This document shows positions 1,247 to 36,115 of a DNA stretch of 64,000 nt, piece after piece. Numbering within the stretch: position 1 is the stretch's first letter; each line of letters opens with the position of its first letter. The DNA lies in assembly GCA_020253445.1 (NCBI GenBank), contig JADCBP010000006.1, forward strand, positions 124,001 to 188,000, read 5' to 3'. A program made the translations under genes and the position numbers. The notes beneath the pieces were generated by a model. That model searched no databases. It had not been told where the DNA came from and worked only from the letters and a program-made list of their open reading frames with translations. This DNA is from Methylobacterium sp. (lineage in GTDB: Bacteria; Pseudomonadota; Alphaproteobacteria; Rhizobiales; Beijerinckiaceae).

Positions 1247-3868
<2,622 letters not shown>

Positions 3869-3974
3869 GCTCTTCCCTCATCCGGCGAAGTGGCGGTCGC
3901 CCCGTTTTGGCAACGATCGATCTTGCGCAATGTAGGTGTGGCCAATCCGCAACAAAAGGGGCAGGATCAAAGGA

Positions 3975-4781
3975 ATGTCGGAAATCACCCAATCGCGGCT
4001 CGGCGCGCGCCAAGATAGTATAGCGCGCCTCGCCGCGCTTCATCGCTACCCCGTGAAAGGCCTCTCGCCGGAGGCGATGTCCGAGGCGCAACTCACGGAA
4101 GGCGAGCATTTTCCCGGTGACCGCCTGATGGCGATCGAGAACGGCCCCTCGGGGTTCGATCCCGCCGCGCCCGAGCATCTGCCGAAGCAGAAATTCCTGA
4201 TGCTCATGCGCAACGAGAAGCTGGCGCGCATCGCGGCACGCTTCGAGGATGCCACGCGCCGGCTCACCCTCAGCCAGGGCGGCGGGGTGGTCGCGAGCGG
4301 CGTGGTGGATGAGGAAACGGGCCGCGCGGCCATCGAGCGCTTTTTCGAAAGCTATATGGGCGATGAGATGCGCGGCCCGGCACGCCTGCTCGTCGCACCG
4401 CCGGGCCACCGCTTCATGGATTCGCGGCACGGCTTCCTCTCGATCATCAACCGCGCCAGCGTGGAGGCCATCGCCAGGCTCGCGAACCGAGCGAGCATCG
4501 ATCCGCTGCGCTTTCGCGGCAACCTGCTGGTGGAGGGGCTTGCGCCCTGGGCCGAGTTCGATCTCGTGGGCCAGCGGGTGAAAATCGGAGAGGCCGAACT
4601 CGAAATCACCCGGCGCATCGACCGATGCGCCGCCATCGATGTCGACCCGCGCGCAGGCCTGCGTGACCTGCGCATGGTGTCGCTGCTGGAGCAGAATCTC
4701 GCGCACCATGATTGCGGGGTCTATGCCCGCATCCTTCGCTCGGGTCTCATCCGGCCGGGCGATGCGCTGACCGTGCCCTGA
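3975..4781 (+). CDS. MOSC domain-containing protein
   Basis: This 268-residue protein has an N-terminal MOSC beta-barrel part (starts near HRYPVKGLSPE) and a C-terminal MOSC domain. The family's conserved cysteine appears as DRCAAIDVDP near residue 220. MOSC domains occur in molybdenum cofactor sulfurases and in mARC/YcbX-type reductases, where the cysteine handles sulfur or binds Mo cofactor. Because no ferredoxin domain is fused, this looks like the short bacterial type, for which the reaction is not settled. The ATG at 3975 is chosen because AAAGG sits just upstream; an earlier in-frame ATG at 3936 adds 13 basic residues. Divergent from clpB and convergent with the DUF4167 gene. Confidence 0.88.
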   Translation: MSEITQSRLGARQDSIARLAALHRYPVKGLSPEAMSEAQLTEGEHFPGDRLMAIENGPSGFDPAAPEHLPKQKFLMLMRNEKLARIAARFEDATRRLTLSQGGGVVASGVVDEETGRAAIERFFESYMGDEMRGPARLLVAPPGHRFMDSRHGFLSIINRASVEAIARLANRASIDPLRFRGNLLVEGLAPWAEFDLVGQRVKIGEAELEITRRIDRCAAIDVDPRAGLRDLRMVSLLEQNLAHHDCGVYARILRSGLIRPGDALTVP

Positions 4782-4785
4782 GACG

Positions 4786-4808
4786 AAAAAGGGCGACTGG
4801 AGCCGCCC
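4786..4808 (-). terminator. Rho-independent terminator of the DUF4167 gene
   Basis: On the minus strand GGGCG, an 8-nt loop and CGCCC are followed directly by TTTTT. It lies 26 bp past the DUF4167 stop codon, between two convergent genes. The plus-strand reading has no T-tract, so it serves mainly the minus-strand gene. Confidence 0.7.
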
Positions 4809-4833
4809 TCAATTCCTTGATTTTTCGAGTTAT

Positions 4834-5634
4834 TCAGGCCTCGTTTTCACCTTCGCCGGCCAGCGCGCCCTCGGGGCGACCAGTCCGGCCGCGACGGCGG
4901 CGACGATGGCGGAACGGCCCGCGGCCGTCATCCCCCTCGCCCGCCTCGGGCGGACCATCGACATCGCCTTCCGGGCCGACCGCGCGCGCGGGCATGGTGA
5001 GGAAAGCCGGCAGATCGGGCTGATCGCCGGTGCCCTCGACCTCGACCGGCGGACGGCGCGGTTGCTGGAAGCGATCATTGTCGCGGAACCGGTTGCGATC
5101 GCGGTCGCGATCATGGCGGCCACCGCGACGATCCTCACGCGGAGGACGTGGCTGGAACCCACCCTCGCCAACCATGCGCGGCTGGGGCTGGCCTTCGCCG
5201 CCCTCACCTTCGGCCGGCTGTTCGCCGGAAGCGAATTCGCCGCTCTGGCGCTCACCGCCGGAACCGTAGGAGGTGCCGCCATTCTGCTGTTGCATCGCCT
5301 GTGGCGAGCGGAAGGTGAAACGGTCCGAGGACGGGTCGAAATCGTCATCATCATCGTCGCGATCATCCGCCTGGCCGGAAAGCGCAGCCTGCTGGGCCTG
5401 CACGGCCGCGGCGATGAGGCGGTAATAATGCTCGGCATGCTGCAGATAGCTCTCCGCGGCCACCGGATCGCCGGAGAGATGCGCATCGCGGGCGAGCTGG
5501 GTGTATTTCTCGGCGATGTGCTGGGCCGTGCCGCGGACTTTCACATCCGGACCGTTCGATTCATACGAACGCGTCAACGGGTTGGGCCCGCGACGGTTGC
5601 GACCCCGCATGCGCTTGTTCTGTCCTGGTCTCAT
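4834..5634 (-). CDS. DUF4167 domain-containing protein
   Basis: This is a 266-residue, strongly charged protein. The conserved DUF4167 domain is at the N-terminus (about 1-85): a basic opening MRPGQNKRMRGRNRRGPNPL, then VRGTAQHIAEKYTQLARDA and a helix with YLQHAEHYYRLIAA. The remainder is low-complexity, rich in G, R, D, E, P and Q, and ends in a basic RRRRRGRTGRPEG stretch, suggesting RNA binding and disorder. The family is nearly confined to Alphaproteobacteria, is often found beside prmC/prfA as here, and has no established function. The gene is followed by its own terminator. Confidence 0.9.
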   Translation of the reverse strand: MRPGQNKRMRGRNRRGPNPLTRSYESNGPDVKVRGTAQHIAEKYTQLARDAHLSGDPVAAESYLQHAEHYYRLIAAAVQAQQAALSGQADDRDDDDDDFDPSSDRFTFRSPQAMQQQNGGTSYGSGGERQSGEFASGEQPAEGEGGEGQPQPRMVGEGGFQPRPPREDRRGGRHDRDRDRNRFRDNDRFQQPRRPPVEVEGTGDQPDLPAFLTMPARAVGPEGDVDGPPEAGEGDDGRGPFRHRRRRRGRTGRPEGALAGEGENEA

Positions 5635-5933
5635 CCGTGTTTTTCTCGGCTGGCTCGGTTTACGGGCGGGCTTGGCGTTGCCTGGAGGCTGTCATCCGGG
5701 GAACAAATCCCCGCTCGTCGCGTCCGGCGCCCCGGAGGGAGCGCGGGCCTTGCGACAGGTCTTTCGGTCAAGGATCCCGGCGCCGCCGGCTCAATCAACG
5801 TGACGGAAAGAGGCGATGCTTGTCCCAGCTGCGTCGAGTCCAACCCCTGGATGACCCTGACGCGTGCACCACACGCTGCTTCCTTAGCGGCTCTTTCGCA
5901 GGGTTGCAAGCAAAGGCATCGGGCCCCTTCGTT
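5635..5933. other. 299-bp gap between prmC and the DUF4167 gene
   Basis: No convincing gene is present; the open frames here have no recognisable protein content. It should hold the promoter and leader of the DUF4167 gene. One small perfect hairpin is visible at 5697-5713 (CGGGGA, 5-nt loop, TCCCCG), which would fall in that gene's 5' leader. Confidence 0.4.
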
Positions 5934-6794
5934 TCATCCCCGGCCAAGGAGATGTCGCGCATGCCCGGCAAGGTCATACCGGATCGCCATATCCTGGAAA
6001 CCAGCCGCCTCCATCAGGGCAATCACGCTTTCGGATTGCCCCGCTCCCAGTTCGACGCCCAGCCAGCCGCCGGGCATGAGAAAGGCGCGCGCCTCACCCG
6101 CGATGCGCCGGTAGAAGGCGAGGCCATCCGGCCCCCCATCGAGCGCGAGGGGAGGATCGAAATCCCGCACCGCCAGCTCAAGACCCGCGAGATCGGCGCT
6201 GGGGATGTAGGGTGGGTTGGAGAGGATGGCGTCGAACGGCCCGGCGAGCCCCGCGAACAGATCACCGTGATGGAAAGCCACCCGGCCAGCCACGCCCAAG
6301 GCTTCCGCATTCCCCCCCGCCACCGCAAGCGCTGCGGGCGAGAGATCCACCGCCACGCCGGTCGCCTCGGGGATTTCGGCCAGCAATGTGAGGATGATCG
6401 CGCCCGAACCCGTGCCAAGATCGAGCAGGCGCGGTGCCCGCTGCCCCGCCAGGCGCTTCAGCATCTCCTCCACCAGCAATTCGGTCTCGGGCCGGGGGTC
6501 GAGCACATCCGGCGTCACGCGGAAATCGCGACCGCAGAAGCTGCGTCGCCCCGCGATTCGTGTCAGCGGTTCGCCCTTGAGCGCCCGCGACAGGGCCGGA
6601 CCGAGACGCTCCGCCGTTTCGCCGATCAGGCGATCCGGGTGAAGAAAGAGTTCACCGGGCTCCACGCGGAGGGCATCCGCCAGAAGCCGGCGCGCCATGA
6701 GGCGGCAATCCTCGAAACCCGCCTTGCCGAAGGCGGTCGCGAGCAAATCCCCCGCTTCAGCGCGCCGCATGTCGGGCCGGAACGCCCCGCTCAT
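5934..6794 (-). CDS. prmC: Peptide chain release factor N5-glutamine methyltransferase
   Basis: The 286-residue product has a helical N-terminal domain (about 1-85) that binds the release factor and a Rossmann methyltransferase domain with the S-adenosylmethionine loop DLGTGSGA (125-132) and the catalytic NPPY motif (193-196). PrmC methylates the glutamine of the GGQ motif in RF1 and RF2. Its partner prfA lies immediately upstream and the two overlap by 4 nt (6791-6794), so translation is probably coupled. Confidence 0.97.
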
Positions 6795-7876
6795 GCCTCT
6801 TCCCCGGCGAGCAGACGCGCCTGATGCTCGGTGATCAGCGCCTCGATCAGTTCCTCAAGCCCGCTGCCTTCCAGGATCGCCTCGATCTTGTAGAGCGTGA
6901 GGTTGATGCGGTGGTCGGTCACGCGACCTTGCGGGAAATTGTAGGTGCGGATGCGCTCGGAACGATCACCCGAGCCGATCTGGTCCTTGCGGGCAGCCGC
7001 GCGAGCCTTGGCGAGGCGCTGGCGCTCCATGTCGAAGAGGCGCGTGCGCAGGATATCCATGGCCCGCGCCCGGTTTTTATGCTGGGAGCGCTCCTCCTGC
7101 ACCAGAACCGCAAGGCCGGACGGGATATGCGTGATGCGGATGGCCGATTCGGTCTTGTTGACGTGCTGGCCGCCGGCCCCCTGCGAGCGCATGGTCTCGA
7201 TGCGAAGGTCTGCCTCGTTGATCGAGACATCCACCTCTTCGGCGAGCGGCAGCACGGCGACCGTGGCGGCGGAAGTGTGGATGCGTCCCTGCGCTTCGGT
7301 TTCGGGCACGCGCTGCACGCGATGCACGCCGGATTCGAATTTCAGCCGGGCGAAGACACCCTCGCCATGGATTTCCGCGACGATTTCCTTGAAGCCGCCC
7401 ATCGCGCCTTCATTGGCCGAAAGCACCTCGACCTTCCAGCCCTTCAATTCGGCATAGCGCTGGTACATGCGGAAGAGATTGCCGGCGAAGAGCGAGGCTT
7501 CATCGCCGCCCGTGCCCGCACGCACCTCCAGGATGACCGAGCGGTCATCGGCGGAATCGCGCGGCAGCAGGCCAAGGCGGATCACCTGCACGATTCGCTC
7601 GTGCTCGGCCACCAGCATGGCCAGTTCCTCCTCGGCCATCGCGCGCATCCCGGCATCGATCGCGGCATCGGCGAGCATCTCGCGGGTGGCGGCGAGATCG
7701 GCCGCGACACGCCGCTCGGCGGCGATCGCCTGCACGAGGGGGCCAAGTGCTGCGAGCTCCTTCGAGAGCGCGACGATGCTCGTGGCGTCGGCGGTGGCGG
7801 CGAGCCGCGCTTCCAGATCGGCATGCTTGGCCGAAATGGCATCGAGCTTCTCGCGGGGGAGAACGTTGTCGCTCAT
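6791..7876 (-). CDS. prfA: Peptide chain release factor 1
   Basis: The protein has 361 residues. The catalytic GGQ is at 235-237 within [19 protein letters not shown], and the codon-reading PxT tripeptide is PET (191-193) in [14 protein letters not shown], which marks RF1 (UAA/UAG) rather than RF2. It overlaps prmC and lies 12 bp downstream of ptsP, forming a ptsP-prfA-prmC unit that is widely conserved in Rhizobiales. Confidence 0.98.
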
Positions 7877-34220: not shown

Positions 34221-34244
34221 AAAAAAAGCACGCCCGAAGGCGCG
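34221..34244 (-). terminator. Rho-independent terminator of the Cys/Gly-rich peptide gene
   Basis: On the minus strand CGCGCC-TTCG-GGCGTG is a 6-bp stem (one G-T pair) with a UUCG tetraloop, followed by C and seven T. It lies 27 bp beyond the peptide gene's stop and insulates it from the channel gene. Confidence 0.85.
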
Positions 34245-34270
34245 TTCCGCGCCGGTTGCCATGCCGGCCC

Positions 34271-34516
34271 TCAGTGTTCCGTGCCCGACATCCCGCCGCC
34301 ATTGCCGCCGCCACCATCGCCGATGCCTTCGCATCCGCATCCACAGGTTGCGCCGCTGCCGCAGCCACAGCCAGCCGTGCCACAACTTCCGCCACCGCAG
34401 CCGCAGCCGCAATCTGCCGCGTTCATGGCCGCGATCGCCTCCGTCATGCGGCCCATTACGGCTTGAACGGCAGCATCCTCCATCCGGATCGACACCCGGC
34501 TCAGTGAAATCGTCAT
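34271..34516 (-). CDS. Cys/Gly-rich small peptide (possible modified-peptide precursor or metal binder)
   Basis: An 81-residue product in two parts. Residues 1-35 form a cysteine-free, likely helical leader (MTISLSRVSIRMEDAA..., ending AMNAAD). Residues 36-65 carry nine cysteines in CGCGCGGGSC, GTAGCGC and GSGATCGCGC, then a glycine-rich end (GIGDGGGGNGGGMSGTEH). Leader plus Cys/Gly core is the layout of ribosomal peptide precursors; metallothionein-like metal binding is the main alternative. The ATG at 34516 has AAGGGG 8 nt upstream; a GTG at 34525 is in frame but without such a site. The gene has its own terminator and is divergent from the WH/HH gene at 34717. No characterised homologue is recognised. 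Confidence 0.75.
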   Translation of the reverse strand: MTISLSRVSIRMEDAAVQAVMGRMTEAIAAMNAADCGCGCGGGSCGTAGCGCGSGATCGCGCEGIGDGGGGNGGGMSGTEH

Positions 34517-34571
34517 CCCTGACACCCCTTGAGTTGTGATAACACCGTCATGATGTTTAAAATGGTTAACG

Positions 34572-34606
34572 GGTCAAGAAAAAAGTTTACCTTTTGTCCC
34601 TTGACA
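34572..34606. promoter_or_regulatory. Back-to-back -35 boxes in an AT-rich divergent region
   Basis: TTGACC on the minus strand (34572-34577) and TTGACA on the plus strand (34601-34606) point away from each other, toward the Cys-rich peptide and the WH/HH gene. The 200-bp intergenic stretch (34517-34716) is strikingly AT-rich for this chromosome. I could not identify convincing -10 boxes at 16-18 bp for either, so exact promoters are unproven. GTCAAG/CTTGAC also forms an inverted repeat with a 21-bp spacer. Confidence 0.35.
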
Positions 34607-34716
34607 GGCAAATGGAATTTATGACAAGCTTTTAGAAATTCATCCGGGGTGTAATTTCTTCCAAAAGTTGTGTCGTGAGAACGCAACTTATGCTGTTTAT
34701 TGGGGAGGGTATTTGA

Positions 34717-35346
34717 ATGAGCAGTGTTTCTGATCAGGCAAATGAATCTTCATTGTTTGAGAGATTCTTTTCGCCAAGTCTCTACACTTATTTCCGTGTC
34801 AAGCGGCCCGAGATCGATGCCAACGAAATGCGCGTTCGGCTGACCGAGCTTCTGAAATTCCTGATCCTTTCCCATGAGTTTCCAGGAAATATTCTCTTCG
34901 GAGAGGAATTGGATGACCTTTGGCATCTCTGGATCATGCAAACGCGTGAATATGAAAAACTCTGCCGTTCATTGCCGGGCGGCCGGTTTATTCATCATGA
35001 CTCCAGGGATCAGCCCGCCGATACTGTGGTTTGGGCAGAGGTGGAGCACCTCGTCGCGCGAATGATCGCTGAAAAGAAAGCGAAGGGCGTCGCGCTGGCC
35101 GGCGCTGATCTCAGCCCTCAAAAGCTTCGGGAGAATGCGGAGAGGCTCCTGTCATTCTTTGCAAGTTACGTTGAGAACTTCGGACAAATACAATCTGAAG
35201 TTGTTCATTGCTGGCCGCCGCTCCAGCGGCTCATGCGACGCATGGACTGGAGCACCGATGAACTGAACGCGTTTCTGACCGAGCATTCCGTTCCAAGCGC
35301 GCCGCCGCCTGGCTCGCCGCCTCTTGGCCACGCTTCTCCGGCCTGA
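34717..35346 (+). CDS. WH...HH protein resembling the glycine-rich-domain (GRDP-like) family
   Basis: A 209-residue soluble protein. The central LDDLWHLWIMQTREYEKLC followed by GGRFIHH resembles the [DE]xxWHxxI/LxTxxYxxxC...HH core of GRDP-like (DUF1399-type) proteins. From memory, bacterial versions of this module can be joined to Gly/Cys-rich tails. The C-terminus is helical, then proline-rich. No enzyme activity is established for the module. The ATG has a strong ribosome site (GGGGAGGG, 7 nt upstream). Codons and base content are AT-richer than all neighbours, suggesting acquisition. It is divergent from the Cys/Gly-rich peptide gene and 10 bp before the membrane-protein gene. Confidence 0.6.
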   Translation: MSSVSDQANESSLFERFFSPSLYTYFRVKRPEIDANEMRVRLTELLKFLILSHEFPGNILFGEELDDLWHLWIMQTREYEKLCRSLPGGRFIHHDSRDQPADTVVWAEVEHLVARMIAEKKAKGVALAGADLSPQKLRENAERLLSFFASYVENFGQIQSEVVHCWPPLQRLMRRMDWSTDELNAFLTEHSVPSAPPPGSPPLGHASPA

Positions 35347-35356
35347 GAGCGGCACC

Positions 35357-36115
35357 ATGGCATGGGCCGAACAGCTGGGCGGGTCGGTCCATGCGAGCGG
35401 GCTTGGCCGGCTGGAAGCCGAATTGCTGCGCGCGGCGCTGCTCGTTCTTGCAGCGGGCATCCTCGCAGCCTCCGGCGCGCTCTTTGTCATCCTGCTTTAT
35501 GGCTGGCTCATTCCATCCGGGTCCGTCGTCCAACTGGCCTTTGCGGCCGGCGCAGCGCTGCTGCTGCTCGCTGTTCAGTTTCTTGCGCGCGCCCGGGCCG
35601 GCTCCATGGCCGACCGGGCGAGCCAGAAGCTTCTCGCCCGCCTCGATCAGCAGGGCGAGGCTGCGCGCCTCGCCGGCCAGCCGCTGATACGCGCCTTGCG
35701 CGGCCGCAGCTTCCTTCTTGCCGCCGATTGCGGCTGGGTGCCGATATTCCTCATGGTCGTGCTGGTACTCCACCCGCTCCTCGGTGCCACCACCGCCGTG
35801 GCCTTGCTTCTCCTGATCCGCTTTGGCGCAGCACCGGAGCCGCCTCCATCGAAACCCGATGCCTCCTTCCGCGCGGGCGAACGCAGGCGGCGGCTTGCGG
35901 TTGCGGGTCTGCGCGATACCCTGCAGATCCTGCTGTTGTCGCTCGGGGGAGCGCTGGCCATGGCAGGTACGCTGCAAATCGGGGAGATTGTGGCTGCGAC
36001 CCTCCTCAGCCTGCGAGCACTGGGCGCCCTTGGCGCCGCCCTCGAAGATGCGCCGACGCTGAAAGCGGCGCATCGCAGCTGGCAAGGCCTGCGATCCCGC
36101 GAGGGGATCGGCTGA
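35357..36115 (+). CDS. ATPase-less type I secretion permease-like membrane protein
   Basis: A 252-residue protein with about six hydrophobic helices. CGWVPIFLMVVLVLHPLLGA matches the D-x-P-W-x-P-I-F...HP-x-L-G signature of PrtD/AprD-type type I secretion exporters, and the layout before and after it (RALRGRSFLLAADCGW; later LRDTLQILLLSLGGALAMAG and AHRSWQGL) follows that family. It stops where those exporters continue into the ATPase: no Walker A, signature or Walker B motif exists here or downstream, where ugpC converges. It may be a degraded exporter or a permease that borrows an ATPase. The ATG at 35357 is chosen; an in-frame TTG at 35324 overlaps the previous gene. Confidence 0.65.
   Translation: MAWAEQLGGSVHASGLGRLEAELLRAALLVLAAGILAASGALFVILLYGWLIPSGSVVQLAFAAGAALLLLAVQFLARARAGSMADRASQKLLARLDQQGEAARLAGQPLIRALRGRSFLLAADCGWVPIFLMVVLVLHPLLGATTAVALLLLIRFGAAPEPPPSKPDASFRAGERRRRLAVAGLRDTLQILLLSLGGALAMAGTLQIGEIVAATLLSLRALGALGAALEDAPTLKAAHRSWQGLRSREGIG

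Follow-up and report, generated by a model that had tools for sequence, protein, structure and literature searches.

Does a short peptide rich in cysteine and glycine, encoded beside a protein with paired WH and HH motifs and a membrane protein resembling half of an exporter, belong with these neighbours in one functional unit, and, if so, what do the neighbours do for it? The question is raised by three genes in a 64,000-nucleotide stretch of Methylobacterium DNA (hereafter the window), for which a preliminary description had proposed a peptide-making, metal-handling or export module. Related loci and genomes are given below by their numbers (L and G, respectively).

Structure of the locus

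The peptide gene (34271..34516, minus strand) encodes 81 amino acids between an ATG at 34516 and a stop codon at 34273-34271; a longer version could start at a GTG at 34525, and the ATG was preferred because the relatives align there. A cysteine-free leader (residues 1-35) is followed by a core (residues 36-62) with nine cysteines, held in CGC motifs, and then by a glycine-rich tail. By eye, an AAGGGG stands 8 nt upstream of the ATG, and no Sec-like signal was seen in the peptide; none of the Pfam families matched it, and hence no Pfam metallothionein. Neither a double-glycine site in the leader, nor HlyD, nor a C39-ABC exporter was found in the window trio. Downstream of the gene lies an intrinsic-terminator-like hairpin (34229..34244, minus strand) with a UUCG loop on a six-pair stem and seven T; six sites of this kind were counted in the region, compared with 2.9 expected from shuffled sequences. 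The peptide had been described as having 81 residues, with nine cysteines and a leader free of them, its own ribosome site and a terminator behind it, and the reading frame, the AAGGGG (by eye) and the hairpin agree with that description.

The WH/HH protein is encoded divergently from the peptide (34717..35346, plus strand; 209 amino acids) and is helical and, by sequence comparison, distantly GRDP-like. Its motifs, LDDLWH (residues 65-70) and FIHH (residues 91-94), were found as previously described, and the conserved residues are D66, W69, H70, T76, Y79, C83, G89, H93 and H94. Across 78 WH sequences (76 of them different), the cores of which were picked by a D..WH...HH pattern (alignment A5), so that the conservation of W, H70 and H94 is partly a product of how the sequences were selected, W69 and H70 were present in all 78, D66, Y79 and H94 in 77, C83 in 76, H93 in 74, G89 in 72 and T76 in 69. 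The conservation of this D-W-H...Y...C...HH set suggests a metal or active site, which these residues probably form. No Pfam or NCBIfam model scored above its cut-off against any of the three proteins of the trio, the WH protein included; no membrane segment was seen by eye in the latter, whose structure model, of low confidence (pLDDT 68), had no match in the PDB.

The third gene (35357..36115, plus strand) starts with an ATG 10 bp after the WH stop codon and encodes a membrane protein of 252 amino acids, assigned by profile, fold model and alignment as a PrtD-like ABC transmembrane domain. The NCBIfam PrtD profile (TIGR01842) matched with an E-value of 7.4e-10 and 38 bits, not reaching its cut-off of 510, and the fold model (pLDDT 81) matched the PrtD structure 5l22 (Foldseek E 3.9e-5, TM-score 0.69 by query), which together bear out the earlier likening of this protein to the permease half of PrtD. 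It has no ATPase domain, all six orthologues (252-257 amino acids) stopping after the membrane domain, and in an alignment with four full-length exporters it proved 48 residues short in the TM4-TM5 stretch and 11 short in the TM2-TM3 stretch (helix numbering taken from the comparison with ABC exporters), the larger gap being common to all six orthologues. The gene is under purifying selection (dN/dS 0.10-0.41 in six pairs). In ABC exporters the two loops concerned are intracellular and carry the coupling helices. With the ATPase gone, and with it the TM4-TM5 segment through which coupling to an ATPase would be expected, the ordinary role of an ATP-driven exporter is unlikely for this protein, unless it pairs with an unusual partner, and the idea that it is an export protein is correspondingly weakened.

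Between the two divergent genes lie two divergent TTGAC elements that are unchanged in six sequences. One is part of a promoter-like site of the peptide gene (34550..34577, minus strand), in which all six genomes share the TTGAC of the first hexamer; the other is a conserved, -35-like TTGACA directed toward the WH gene (34601..34606, plus strand; CTTGAC invariant in six), for which a well-spaced -10 element was not seen. An inverted repeat follows in the predicted leader of the WH-permease transcript (34662..34692, plus strand). A repeat of differing sequence occupies the same place in the window, L009, L010 and L011, whereas the repeat finder detected none in L008 or L012. The consensus stem has 10 pairs, 7 of which are changed on both sides, and 85% of its cells are paired, compared with a shuffled mean of 65%. 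When single sequences were folded and compared with shuffles, only L009 (z -3.2) and L010 (z -3.9) were clearly better, L008 and L011 were weakly better, and L012 and the window (z -0.04 for the latter) were no better. By its covariation, the repeat 5' of the WH gene qualifies as a candidate for a regulatory hairpin in the WH-permease transcript.

Conservation and distribution of the three genes

A scan of one genome per species gave seven relatives of the window WH protein. In all five alphaproteobacterial loci (L008-L012) the peptide, the WH gene and the permease share order and orientation, so that, with the window, the layout occurs in all six alphaproteobacterial loci that have a full-length WH relative. 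The site, between mscS/motAB and the ugp genes, is likewise shared by L008-L012. The trio proteins are 42-95% identical to the window copies, the peptide relatives (six of six loci, 8-10 cysteines each) being 49-88% identical to the window peptide, and the flanking genes are mostly 82-99% identical across L008-L012 (the exception being L012, with 70% for mscS and 82% for motB). The trio of L012 is only 45-52% identical, unlike its flanking genes. The dN/dS ratio, for which six of the 15 possible pairs were taken for each gene, was 0.11-0.28 for the peptide (six pairs) and 0.12-0.18 for the WH gene (two of six pairs saturated); for the trio overall, 16 of the 18 gene-by-pair comparisons were unsaturated and gave 0.10-0.41.

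Among 149 genomes of the family, a full-length WH match was found in two (G000 and G286), with the short motif only in ten more, and the same two had the convincing peptide matches (G276 had two weak ones); L012 and G286 appear to be the same genome. In a sample of six genomes from the genus, the peptide and the WH gene were both present in two and both absent in four. The permease profile matched 74 of the 149 family genomes; among the matches listed, a near-complete match in a short frame (277-278 amino acids) was confined to G000 and G286, the remaining listed matches lying in frames of at least 522 amino acids except for a partial match in G314, in a 209-amino-acid frame with a stop. The mscS gene is present in each of the four genus members that lack the trio. 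In two of these (L066 and L067), about 9 kb of other genes, which we take to be a cbb3 oxidase and copper ATPase cluster, lie between mscS and ugpC.

Since all alphaproteobacterial examples share one neighbourhood in related genomes, their linkage alone is weak evidence. The search for linkage of the three genes that the preliminary description had called for did return the same layout in six of six alphaproteobacterial loci, in which the three genes are conserved beyond chance. The proposed three-gene module gains further support from the joint presence and absence within the genus and from the conserved divergent promoter-like blocks. That the WH protein is an unrelated neighbour of the peptide, as in one of the alternatives offered earlier, is unlikely.

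WH domains fused to cysteine-containing tails

A survey model limited to the 61-position WH core, tails excluded, matched 29 of 398 genomes sampled from the phylum with an E-value of 1e-5 or better. The loci of 28 genomes (the window's own excluded) encoded 34 WH proteins, of which 28 carry cysteines after the domain, 25 of these with three or more; among the six without a cysteine tail, three are followed by a TIGR04222 protein with a Gly/Cys end, one adjoins a tailed paralogue and two are the pair in L153. A second survey matched 30 of 394 genomes, and 20 of its 34 match rows were read (four were in genomes already read, ten were left out); its proteins without a cysteine tail were those of L187, L188, L189, L197 and L205. 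At least three cysteines in the last 40 residues were far commoner in the WH proteins, with 18 of 34 and 15 of 20 in the first and second survey, respectively, than in the other ORFs of the same loci, with 14 of 258 and 5 of 158; these other ORFs contain some spurious antisense ones.

Among the tails are GGGCGGGGD and, at the other end of the range, tandem repeats (AWCAVEP, AFCSIEPSQAAA and TAYCAGPHIGK), and many members of this kind are Gly/Ser-rich with scattered cysteines. In L149 (5872-8238), L087 (5446-6345) and L080 (1348-2196), the WH domain is followed by tandem single-cysteine repeats resembling a multi-core precursor. L152 (4364-6384) encodes a WH protein with an NPCAATRCR tail, a TauD-family oxygenase and a methyltransferase, and looks like a small biosynthetic cluster; a long ORF downstream is presumably UvrA-like.

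A WH protein with the tail CGCSGKGCGAGCSC, ending in CGCSGKGCGAGCSCNSR, is encoded on an E. coli plasmid (L155, NZ_KU932034.1) together with an ABC exporter and a JmjC-domain protein (3620-6830), a set that is a candidate plasmid-borne modified-peptide system. Plasmids of this type are small, mobilizable and mostly about 7.9 kb in size. A 3.3-kb plasmid query had a partial match in 88 of 5426 E. coli genomes and was matched over at least 80% in 29. Nearly all of the plasmid WH records listed are annotated 'hypothetical protein', and one of ten listed E. coli copies is named 'glycine-rich domain-containing protein' in RefSeq. For pEC16II, the one paper found in open-licence PubMed Central is on a kanamycin plasmid.

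WH proteins beside separate cysteine peptides

In other loci the cysteines are encoded next door. The WH relatives of L013 (Albitalea) and L014 (a Rhizobacter MAG) are 36% and 30% identical to the window protein, respectively, and both loci have the order double-glycine peptide, WH protein, HlyD and C39-peptidase ABC exporter (HlyD of L014 assigned by eye), the peptide consisting of a double-glycine leader and a CCACHCCSCH core with 6-7 clustered cysteines. L153 (G957) encodes three ...ISGG-REESFCLELCLEFCLSLCFE-type peptides in tandem, with four cysteines each, one at every fourth residue; next come a pair of WH proteins, HlyD and a C39-ABC exporter. Tail-less WH proteins adjoin a 54-amino-acid peptide with a seven-cysteine core in L188 and a double-glycine peptide (GGGCERWVETCGCKSGLCDWCGK) in L189; the double-glycine peptide of L197 has two cysteines after the GG, and a C39-ABC exporter is present. 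L187 (5269-10073) encodes a TauD-family oxygenase, the WH protein, HlyD and a C39-ABC exporter; a leader-bearing cysteine peptide was not found there, the only small cysteine-containing ORF seen upstream on the WH strand being a leaderless one of 34 amino acids with four cysteines, 1.2 kb away. At L205 neither a cysteine peptide nor an exporter was found. Altogether, both surveys gave 11 tail-less WH proteins, eight of which adjoin a clear cysteine peptide or a tailed protein; of the other three, that of L197 adjoins the two-cysteine double-glycine peptide and those of L187 and L205 adjoin none. Five tail-less loci have a C39-peptidase ABC exporter, and three of these have double-glycine peptides with at least four cysteines.

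Outside the Pseudomonadota, a 33-amino-acid ORF ending in GHCSNCGHCSASF lies just before the WH protein of L156 (Bacteroidota; Aureibacter tunicatorum plasmid pAT2). The neighbours there are annotated as CobN, MotA/TolQ/ExbB and a TonB-dependent receptor, and the locus is possibly linked to metal or haem. The stretch 5768-7394 of L156 comprises the Cys/His-containing 33-amino-acid ORF, the WH protein and a protein of 310 amino acids without an assigned family, with the CobN-like/ExbB genes on one side and the TonB-dependent receptor on the other.

Alignment A4 combined the window protein with 20 of 36 relative rows (near-copies, duplicate loci, a histidine kinase, L019, L021 and L025 were omitted), and L154, in which the D..WH...HH pattern is absent, was omitted from the WH tree. 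The tree (79 columns) was weakly resolved; the six alphaproteobacterial and two betaproteobacterial proteins formed one clade with full support, and the proteins of L153, L156, L187, L188, L189 and L197 fell, without strong support, into a second group together with the tailed E. coli protein. By this grouping, the layout of a WH protein with a separate cysteine peptide may have had more than one origin. The earlier suggestion that the WH/HH protein acts for the peptide is well supported: the WH family recurs in other classes beside unrelated cysteine peptides and C39 exporters, and the fusions of the domain to cysteine tails further back the partnership.

Comparison with known families and systems

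The region of the WH motif is shared with the GRDP-like family (PF07173; plant glycine-rich domain proteins, formerly DUF1399). PF07173 matched four of 21 WH relatives weakly (best E 4.8e-4), one protein (L147) passes its cut-off (28.0 vs 22.7 bits), and a profile of the window family (A1) aligned with residues 35-94 of L147 (hhalign E 2.5e-4, probability 43); against the WH protein of the window, PF07173 gave no match. Judging from these profile comparisons, the window family is distant kin of the GRDP-like family and not a member of it. We know of no biochemistry for the plant GRDP members, nor of a biochemical function for any WH member seen here. Within open-licence PubMed Central, no title on GRDP-like or DUF1399 proteins concerned bacterial peptides, cysteine peptides or exporters, 'glycine-rich domain-containing protein' did not occur together with 'bacteriocin', and GRDP and RiPP vocabulary were not found together.

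TIGR04222 proteins have C-terminal Gly/Ser tails with cysteines, as do many WH proteins. The WH domain is fused to TIGR04222 in L142, L146 and one of 21 A4 members (taken as L089), and the WH gene lies one gene upstream of a TIGR04222 gene in L138, L143 and L145; the three window proteins had no TIGR04222 match (NCBIfam). Genes for MNIO (PF05114) were found in none of the six alphaproteobacterial trio genomes, several of which are MAGs and four of unstated completeness, and in both betaproteobacterial genomes, away from the WH locus. In the main text of a 2025 survey of MNIO substrates (PMC12452194), where the terms 'GRDP' and 'glycine-rich' are absent, TIGR04222 membrane proteins with cysteine tails are treated as putative MNIO substrates, and a third of the genomes with TIGR04222 proteins have no MNIO. 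The WH protein is therefore a candidate partner in such MNIO-free cases.

L013, L014 and L153 share a leader peptide, a small protein, HlyD and a C39-ABC exporter with class II microcin and other double-glycine clusters, from which the window trio differs in lacking the last two and the leader double glycine. To our knowledge, a WH helper family has not been described from microcins. PrtD-type type I secretion ABC exporters share the transmembrane fold of the window permease and differ from it in their fused ATPase and in the TM4-TM5 and TM2-TM3 residues (48 and 11, respectively).

Discussion

The reading that we favour, with about even chances of being right, is that the trio is one module and that the WH/HH protein is a dedicated partner that acts on, loads or protects cysteine-rich segments. 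The conservation, the linkage, the association in cis and in trans and the missing ATPase and loop are observed; from the sequences, our best guess is that the WH/HH domain matures the peptide or loads it with metal. The leader-bearing Cys/Gly-rich peptide would be the product or substrate of the module. Its dedicated partner would belong to a large, mostly undescribed family, seemingly distant kin of PF07173, to which the cysteine-rich segment may be supplied in cis, as a C-terminal tail, or in trans, by the gene next door, and the D-W-H...Y...C...HH site may act on the cysteines through thiol chemistry or load them with metal. The permease would be the membrane domain of a former type I exporter that has lost its ATPase and TM4-TM5 coupling loop; its probable role is to anchor, receive or protect at the membrane, and not to pump by ATP hydrolysis. 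Against this reading stand the low-confidence WH model with no PDB match, the lack of a Pfam match above cut-off for the window WH protein, the exceptions L187, L197 and L205, and the single neighbourhood shared by the alphaproteobacterial loci; in the cis proteins, moreover, the WH domain could be no more than the usual N-terminal domain of some structural protein. The linkage of WH/HH proteins and cysteine peptides is strong and, within open-licence PubMed Central, undescribed.

A more specific version, possible but doubtful, is that the WH/HH proteins form a so far unrecognised class of metal-dependent enzymes that mature peptides by introducing a cysteine-based modification, the exporter having decayed into a membrane partner in the window trio. 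The substrates would be the leader peptides of the window, L013, L014, L153, L188, L189 and L156 in trans, and the tails and tandem cysteine repeats (AWCAVEP, TAYCAGPHIGK and the E. coli plasmid tail) in cis, and the class would span at least Pseudomonadota and Bacteroidota. The trio could instead be an intracellular, metallothionein-like metal or thiol buffer, with the WH/HH protein as metal chaperone and the permease handling metal. Nine cysteines in CGC motifs without a double-glycine site or Sec-like signal (by eye), the conserved His, Cys and Asp of the WH protein, the want of a functional exporter and the CobN, MotA/TolQ/ExbB and TonB-dependent receptor genes around the Bacteroidota relative all fit, but we consider such a buffer unlikely: homologous WH proteins adjoin double-glycine peptides and C39 exporters, which implies secretion, and Gly/Ser tails with few cysteines (e.g. 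GGGCGGGGD) would make poor metallothioneins.

Rather less probable is a Gly/Cys-rich structural material, secreted or at the surface, for which the WH domain would be the assembly chaperone; neither tandem single-cysteine repeats nor short double-glycine peptides resemble matrix proteins, although many cis members are Gly/Ser-rich with scattered cysteines and some are fused to TIGR04222 membrane proteins. The gene order of L013, L014 and L153 also resembles that of precursor-immunity-HlyD-PCAT operons, in which the WH protein would be the self-immunity protein of a bacteriocin-like peptide. We hold this to be improbable, since a single WH motif is retained beside peptides of widely differing sequence, the domain is fused to cysteine tails in many proteins, and the window WH protein has no membrane segment visible by eye. 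Synteny alone might hold together unrelated neighbours, the flanking genes being common to the alphaproteobacterial loci; yet the peptide and the WH gene come and go together within the genus, and the association of WH domains with cysteines recurs in other classes and in Bacteroidota, which leaves very little room for such a coincidence.

The favoured reading, that of a module with a dedicated WH/HH partner, leaves the ATPase-less, loop-less ABC membrane domain as a separate puzzle, a part of a transporter that is still under selection after the loss of its motor. The trio and its WH relatives point to an undescribed way of making cysteine-rich peptides. If this is true, the WH domain would give access to cysteine-rich peptides that may escape current mining rules, one of them carried by small mobilizable E. 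coli plasmids, and it would suggest a role for a domain whose plant members are the GRDP proteins.
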